Below are positions 8,021 through 9,096 of a stretch of 64,000 nt of DNA, piece by piece. Where the stretch lies: the NCBI RefSeq assembly GCF_900106535.1, contig NZ_FNOH01000001.1, positions 620,001 through 684,000 on the forward strand. Direction: 5' to 3'. The position numbers and the translations under genes were made by a program. The DNA is from Myxococcus xanthus (GTDB lineage: Bacteria > Myxococcota > Myxococcia > Myxococcales > Myxococcaceae). How positions within the stretch are numbered: position 1 is the stretch's first letter; each line of letters begins with the position of its first letter. The notes beneath the pieces were generated by a model. That model was not told the DNA's origin, searched no databases, and was given only the letters and a program-made list of their open reading frames with translations.

Positions 8021-8196
8021 GGCGCGGCGGAACGTAACCGTGCCGGTGCGAGGGCGGAATGGTCCCTTCGTCCGTTACCGGGTGTGCGGAGAACCCTTGG
8101 TAAGAAGGGGCGAGTGAGCAGGCGGGGTGGCGTGTGGTGGTGGCGCGCACTAAGCTTGGCTCATGGGGCGCGCATGCCGTGTGCCCTGCTCACGTG

Positions 8197-8202
8197 AGGA
8201 GG
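8197..8202 (+). promoter_or_regulatory. Shine-Dalgarno of the selenoprotein gene
   Basis: AGGAGG lies six bases before ATG 8209 and directly abuts a second in-frame ATG at 8203. The spacing selects 8209 as the start and shows that a ribosome is meant to enter this otherwise interrupted frame. Confidence 0.75.
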
Positions 8203-8208
8203 ATGGCC

Positions 8209-8445
8209 ATGGCCGACCCGAAGGTGACGATTACCTACTGTACCGCTTGAGGCTACAGGCCTCGGGCCGCCCGTGCGGCGGCCGCATTGAAGGATGAGCT
8301 GGATGTAGAGGCAGAGCTGTTGCCGGGCCCTTCGGGTAGCTACGAGGTCGCCGTGGATGGCAAGGTCGTCATCCGGAAGGCGTCGCTCGCATTCCCCACG
8401 GACCACGAGGTGGTGGACGCGGTGGCGAAGGTGCTGGGGCGGTAG
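8209..8445 (+). CDS. SelW-like (Rdx family) selenoprotein with in-frame TGA as selenocysteine
   Basis: The frame runs 78 codons from ATG 8209 to TAG 8443 with a single internal TGA at 8248-8250 (codon 14). Reading that TGA as selenocysteine gives VTITYCTAUGYRPRA. This is the Rdx-family redox motif C-x-x-U in the usual place after the first beta strand and followed by the usual G-Y-x-P-R. After it come a helix, a second part containing SGSYEVAVDGKVV (the family has G-x-F-E-V-x-V-x-G), and a C-terminal helix DHEVVDAVAKVL. Length fits bacterial SelW-like proteins (about 75-100 residues). A strong AGGAGG site precedes the ATG, and codon bias is maintained on both sides of the TGA. Rdx proteins are small thioredoxin-fold oxidoreductases. 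The host must supply SelA/B/C/D from elsewhere; none is in this window. Confidence 0.82.
8249..8283 (+). promoter_or_regulatory. candidate bacterial SECIS: tandem hairpins at and after the Sec codon
   Basis: A perfect 7-bp stem GGCCGCC (8265-8271) / GGCGGCC (8277-8283) closes a 5-base loop CGTGC. The loop G at 8273 is 22 bases past the TGA, within the spacing generally accepted for bacterial SECIS elements, which sit inside the coding region and expose a G near the loop start. A second 5-bp stem, GAGGC (8249-8253) / GCCTC (8259-8263), begins within the TGA itself. Function as a SelB-binding SECIS is inference. Confidence 0.55.
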
Positions 8446-8562
8446 CGGGCAGGTTGCCTTGGCCGCTTCGTGCGATGCTGGGCGCGAGTGAGGGGCGGGC
8501 CGCCTCACGACGCGCCCGCTTCGCGCGGACGAGATTCGCCATGGTTGAGCAGGGGAACTTCA

Positions 8563-9096
8563 ATGTCTGCACGGCGCTGTGCCACGAGAGTCCTTGGCGT
8601 TGCTGCTCTTCTTTGGGTCACGCCCCTGGCGGCGGCTGAGAAGTCTGTCTTTGCACGACTGCATCCTGCAATGACTCGCGCCGAGGTCGAGAAGCTCGGG
8701 AACAAGGTATCCCTGGGGGCATACCAGGGGCATCTCATGTCCTCGTTCACGAGCGAAGGTGCGCTTCAGCGCGTCGGCGCGATTGCCACGTTCCGGCAGG
8801 GGAGTTGTCCGGAGGCGCTGGAGAGCGTGCGCCGGTACCTGGAGCAGGATTTCGGCGCGCCACGCAGTCTGAAACCGCATATCCCACTGTATGGCGGGCT
8901 GCATCAGCGCTGTCATGACTGGAGGCTCGGTGCCGCGTGGCTGCAGGTCTGCTGCGCTCGGCATGAACTCAAGAAGGGCCGTCCCCCGTTGATGCACGTA
9001 TCGGTCACCTATGGAGTCAAAGGCAGGGACACGCCCGTTGAGCATGGAGGCCACGGAGGGGACTCGCTCATCATCCCCTTCGACGGTTTTCACTGA
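8563..9096 (+). CDS. hypothetical exported protein
   Basis: The start at 8563 is chosen because AGGGGA lies six bases upstream and because it gives a good signal peptide (MSARRCATRVLGVAALLWV, cleavage probably after the Ala-rich PLAAA). The mature part is about 155 residues with four or more cysteines (SCPEA, RCHDW, VCCAR) that could form disulfides in the periplasm. Residues 28-110 (HPAMTRAEVEKLG and onward) look like a small alpha/beta domain similar in style to SmpA/BamE-like proteins, whose motif G-M-T-x-x-E-V is comparable, but I cannot assign it. It follows the selenoprotein gene by 117 bases in the same direction. Confidence 0.65.
   Translation: MSARRCATRVLGVAALLWVTPLAAAEKSVFARLHPAMTRAEVEKLGNKVSLGAYQGHLMSSFTSEGALQRVGAIATFRQGSCPEALESVRRYLEQDFGAPRSLKPHIPLYGGLHQRCHDWRLGAAWLQVCCARHELKKGRPPLMHVSVTYGVKGRDTPVEHGGHGGDSLIIPFDGFH

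Follow-up and report, generated by a model that had tools for sequence, protein, structure and literature searches.

A predicted SelW-type selenoprotein gene with an in-frame UGA in Myxococcus xanthus

A selW-like gene interrupted by a single TGA

The window analysed here, a stretch of 64,000 nucleotides of the Myxococcus xanthus genome, carries on its plus strand a selW-like gene of 78 codons followed by a TAG (8209..8445), which was delimited by read-through translation, profile matches, conservation and dN/dS and which contains one in-frame TGA. This TGA is codon 14 (8248-8250), and translation with TGA read as U gives a product of 78 residues (MADPKVTITYCTAUGYRPRAARAAAALKDELDVEAELLPGPSGSYEVAVDGKVVIRKASLAFPTDHEVVDAVAKVLGR), in which 13 residues precede U and 64 follow it, before the frame is closed by the TAG at 8443-8445. 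The Sec codon is the last of the four codons that form the redox motif C-T-A-U (8239..8250, plus strand). A Shine-Dalgarno sequence, AGGAGG (8197..8202, plus strand), lies six bases 5' of the ATG at 8209, as expected from the strong AGGAGG and ATG described in the first-pass annotation of this DNA; the coordinates, codon counts and motif given there, with the TGA after 13 codons and 64 codons open beyond it, also proved exact. A second in-frame ATG at 8203 abuts AGGAGG and is the poorer start of the two.

The selW-like gene looks broken by a stop codon; it is real and easily missed. A mechanical list of open reading frames contains no plus-strand frame of at least 60 codons on 8209-8445, and two minus-strand frames from the same list overlap the gene (8161-8508, 115 aa, and 8369-8572, 67 aa). 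In the window genome (9,261,617 bases in 91 contigs) the selW-like gene is the single match to the Rdx family, and the closest named locus is that of Myxococcus sp. CA023, with 97% protein identity. AGGAG is present 5' of the start in 22 of 27 selW loci of the same genus. At seven loci (L018, L020, L021, L023, L025, L027 and L028) there is no Shine-Dalgarno sequence and a conserved CTTGGnTACGAC stands immediately 5' of the ATG, which is perhaps the promoter element of a leaderless transcript in those seven.

Downstream in the window, a frame at 8563-9096 with no NCBIfam match sits between the selW-like gene and dapD. Across 74 selW loci, a divergent gene for a PLP-dependent decarboxylase lies upstream in 43 and dapD lies downstream in 21, while 29 are without any of the window neighbours; as flanks of unequal length were compared (usually 1.5 or 3 kb), these neighbour counts are lower bounds.

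The read-through product scored 49.2 bits against the Pfam Rdx profile (PF10262; cut-off 22.6, E 6.4e-13) and 45.9 bits against TIGR02174 (cut-off 34.2). Its score against NF041051 (SelTWH_Campy) was 66.9 bits, under the cut-off of 88, which places it in the same wider family and not in the SelTWH_Campy equivalog. In a structure model that drew on 33 of the 74 sequences from the family (mean pLDDT 80.6, pTM 0.65), residues 6-11 form the first strand, C11-T-A-U14 follows it and residues 17-31 form a helix. Among solved structures, this model matched proteins of the SelW family best (E values from 4.4e-06), and thioredoxins ranked behind them; TM-scores normalised to the query were 0.80-0.87 for 2obk, 3dex and 2fa8, and 0.66 for mouse SelW (2npb). 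A profile search of PDB sequences gave 8 distinct chains at E <= 0.1, including mouse SelW and other SelW-related entries. With both Rdx profiles above cut-off and the fold of solved members matched, the earlier assignment to the Rdx (SelW/SelT/SelH) family with a CxxU motif holds, and a thioredoxin-like fold that bears CxxU points to a small redox protein.

Conservation and selection behind the TGA

Of the 96 genomes in the same family, 74 have Rdx, and in every one of the 74 a copy shows the CxxU-GY pattern and a single internal stop, a TGA; these genomes share ancestry, so that the counts are not independent. At the level of the phylum, Rdx matched at E <= 1e-5 in 99 of 195 genomes, of which only two (G110 and G151) were without a TGA copy. 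In 27 genomes of the same genus, pS is 0.372 and pN 0.101 (dN/dS 0.211) over codons +13 to +60 downstream of the UGA, and the frame behind the TGA is under purifying selection. Codons +1 to +12 have a pS of 0.093 and a pN of 0.054, that is, synonymous change is about four-fold lower where the hairpin described below sits.

These values bear on two readings that do without selenocysteine. The TGA breaks the frame, and homologues with Cys at the place of Sec exist (L102, L140, L141 and a tandem copy in genome G046), as would be the case if a Cys homologue had recently acquired a nonsense mutation and the locus were a pseudogene; but all 74 family copies carry the TGA at this codon, dN/dS behind it is 0.21 and the hairpin is under synonymous constraint, and we regard a pseudogene as extremely unlikely. 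Equally hard to credit is a 13-codon open frame followed by a regulatory hairpin, with the remainder untranslated: such a reading takes in the position of the hairpin just 3' of the stop, but leaves aside both the purifying selection on the 48 codons behind the hairpin and the complete Rdx fold.

Non-decay of the frame behind the TGA had been proposed from the window sequence, and is upheld by the 74 open copies and by the dN/dS within the genus. Nor did we find a relative that combines the TGA with frame decay, as the one damaged gene (G024, locus L148, before dapD) is a case of deletion. This remnant of a Sec gene ends 14 bases behind the TGA: its 5' part is retained and everything from there to the 3' flank is missing, a pattern as after one deletion, which argues for gene loss and not for slow decay behind the stop; the genome is a draft of about 800 contigs, in which an assembly fault may also produce a cut gene. 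The stretch before dapD was examined in 15 genomes out of a set of 20 (13 without Rdx, together with G018 and G028). Protein searches there found SelW only as the G024 remnant, and short DNA matches in five other genomes had E values of 0.002-0.007. In G018 (L145 compared with L068) and G028 (L147 compared with L047) the Sec gene is located elsewhere and the site before dapD where it normally lies is vacant; judging from these positions, the gene moved or was regained in both genomes.

The hairpin and the selenocysteine machinery

Inside the coding sequence, on the plus strand, lies a putative SECIS hairpin (8265..8283), with a stem formed by 8265-8271 and 8277-8283 and the loop CGTGC at 8272-8276. 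Bacterial SECIS elements are hairpins just behind the UGA, with a loop approximately 16-37 nt away that has an early G. The selW hairpin agrees with this in distance and loop, as it occupies nucleotides 15-33 behind the UGA, with 21 nt separating the UGA from the loop CGUGC. An Rfam scan of the window gave no match. The 63 bases from the UGA in the window fold at -28.8 kcal/mol (z -2.29), and 4 of 200 shuffles were as good; of the synonymous recodings of the window peptide, 24 of 2000 folded as well as the real segment. All seven pairs arose in 1915 of 20000 recodings, given the GC-rich codon usage, and therefore a single hairpin proves little and the weight rests on conservation.

This conservation was assessed in an alignment of 74 sequences, 61 of them distinct, in which the stem corresponds to columns 18-24 paired with 30-36. 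Pairing is found in 96.5% of stem cells and falls to 24.6-71.4% when the partner is slid by 1 to 3 columns. Changes on both sides of a pair occur in 15 cells, where shuffles gave 3.4 and none of 500 reached 15, and are compensatory, pair 18-36 being GC, AU or GU and pair 21-33 being CG, UA or UG; counted per pair, double changes are seen in 2, no more than in shuffles (356 of 500 reached this number). Pair 22-32 is non-standard in 9 of the 61 distinct rows, and RNAalifold, unaided, returned the same stem minus this pair. All seven pairs are kept in 61 of the 74 Sec copies and 13 copies miss at least one. Codon choice points the same way: the loop codon for Arg22 is CGT in 64 of 74 copies, CGG in 10 and CGC in none, whereas among 158 Arg codons of five neighbouring genes CGC accounts for 59.5% and CGT for 4.4%. 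Going by these codon counts, the hairpin loop fixes a rare Arg codon at this position.

In genome G046, a second Rdx copy without a stop follows the Sec copy, with its Cys codon 374 bases behind the UGA. It reads CVTC-NY, and retains the helix residues A-T-R-A-A and three of the seven hairpin pairs; the segment folds only slightly better in the Sec copy (-10.5) than in the Cys copy (-9.0), and into a different structure. Of the other Cys homologues, L140 has no fold in the hairpin segment and L141 a weak one, while L102 nevertheless folds a hairpin there (-9.4 kcal/mol). With its 74 Sec copies, a single tandem Cys copy and one deletion-truncated gene, this dense family set allows the evolution of a SECIS element inside coding sequence to be tested directly.

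The window genome contains one tRNA-Sec match over the cut-off (74.8 bits, anticodon UCA; seven weaker matches fall below it), selB (307.4 bits), selA (545.6 bits) and selD (385.8 bits), the last without an internal stop and encoding Cys at what we take to be the position held by Sec or Cys in SelD. The four genes proposed at the outset as a check, selA, selB, selC and selD, are thus all present; in particular, neither selB nor the tRNA-Sec (UCA), either of which might have been absent, is lacking. Together with the hairpin and the conserved TGA, this machinery supports the suggestion that this myxobacterium decodes Sec.

Among 14 named control genomes, selB was over the cut-off in 2 and tRNA-Sec in 5, which makes a tRNA-Sec match alone the weaker sign. 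Within the family, selB (E <= 1e-60) was found in 85 of 96 genomes and tRNA-Sec (E <= 1e-8) in 87. One or the other was present in 73 of 74 genomes with Rdx and in 16 of 22 without it (Fisher p 0.0005, uncorrected for relatedness), the remaining 6 of the latter having neither. Five Rdx-bearing genomes are without a selB match (G008, G047, G082, G083 and G093) and two without a tRNA-Sec match (G049 and G083), so that G083, which is 87% complete, is the only one without both. Four genomes at least 90% complete had no match to either selB or tRNA-Sec (G036, G051, G085 and G086), and none of them has Rdx. Genome G007 has two tRNA-Sec matches (C1:5182915-5183007 and 5204985-5205079) that exceed the Rfam cut-off.

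Ordinary near-cognate readthrough of the UGA, as Trp, Cys or Arg and without Sec insertion, was weighed against decoding by tRNA-Sec on genomic data. We consider it very unlikely in view of the complete Sec machinery that co-occurs with the gene and of the covarying hairpin at SECIS distance, and also because a bacterial SelW is reportedly read by tRNA-Sec, with peptides detected beyond the site (PMC11955535). Pseudogene, ordinary readthrough and short peptide were all rejected on conservation, machinery, hairpin and selection behind the UGA.

Selenocysteine insertion, known SelW proteins and other candidates

With family, Sec codon, constraint, hairpin and full machinery established by sequence evidence, we consider it highly likely that the locus encodes a SelW/Rdx selenoprotein into which Sec would be inserted at the UGA via the hairpin and the complete machinery. 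By analogy with the known bacterial system, SelA and SelD would make Sec-tRNA-Sec, SelB would carry it and, so loaded, would bind this hairpin, 15-33 nt downstream of the UGA, during translation, and selenocysteine would be inserted at position 14 of the chain instead of termination. The small gene would be transcribed on its own and would encode a 78-residue redox protein of the SelW/Rdx family, probably cytosolic, in which C-x-x-U on the thioredoxin-like fold could serve as a selenol-thiol redox centre for oxidised protein or small-molecule partners.

Our data support a predicted SECIS-directed selenoprotein of the SelW type, a known bacterial family. SelW-like selenoproteins were listed for bacteria in 2006, with Desulfotalea, Geobacter, Alkaliphilus, Desulfotomaculum and Symbiobacterium named as carriers in the available part of that source (PMC1794560), and in the GOS ocean set no other selenoprotein family is represented by as many sequences as SelW-like (PMC2398784). 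The protein described here shares with them the N-terminal CxxU, profile matches over the cut-offs and the fold, and differs in its host, Myxococcus; in the 2006 listing, Anaeromyxobacter is a user of Sec in a row without SelW-like (PMC1794560). The SelW of Campylobacter jejuni, like the window protein, has about 80 residues and a UGA, which in C. jejuni is reportedly read by tRNA-Sec, and its full-length translation beyond the UGA was reported by Ribo-seq and proteomics (PMC11955535). Solved Rdx proteins (2obk, 2fa8 and 3dex) share the fold and the sequence profile, and 3dex has Cys where the window protein has Sec. Among the matches listed from the literature searched there was no report of selenoproteins in Myxococcus or myxobacteria, and the main texts of seven papers (PMC1794560, PMC2398784, PMC5029168, PMC13188914, PMC12013277, PMC1914089 and PMC5330540) do not mention Myxococcus, a listing in their supplementary tables being possible. 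The selW-like gene of Myxococcus is a new, well-supported member of the known SelW family.

If SelW were the only or dominant selenoprotein of the window Myxococcus, this bacterium would keep four Sec genes for one redox protein of 78 residues. Myxococcus is an aerobic soil predator. The proposal is favoured by the SelD of the window genome, a Cys form whose frame is free of internal stops, but we think it unlikely on present evidence. Also in its favour, no Sec formate dehydrogenase was found in the window genome, where one paralogue without a stop matched TIGR01591 at 235 bits; this Fdh-alpha profile matched 90 of 96 family genomes at E <= 1e-60, and 19 of 96 over its cut-off. Twelve relatives (G017, G022, G024, G030, G032-G035, G037-G039 and G050) have selB and tRNA-Sec but neither Rdx nor, in the listed SelD or Fdh-alpha matches, a TGA, and there is thus probably another, unrecognised selenoprotein in the family, which speaks against the proposal. 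PF24696, presumably the accession of the UGSC selenoprotein family, matched none of 15 genomes, and the controls were likewise without a match. A scan for other conserved in-frame TGA codons, covering 16 stretches around sel genes in five genomes, gave 2730 candidate frames, of which 2005 had some W/C match; most of this number is to be expected from spurious frames in DNA rich in GC, and among the matches listed no candidate was taken.

The selD gene itself varies within the family. One in-frame TGA is present in 29 of the 91 selD-bearing genomes (7 of 27 within the genus of the window) and none in the others, and forms with and without the TGA alternate between close relatives.
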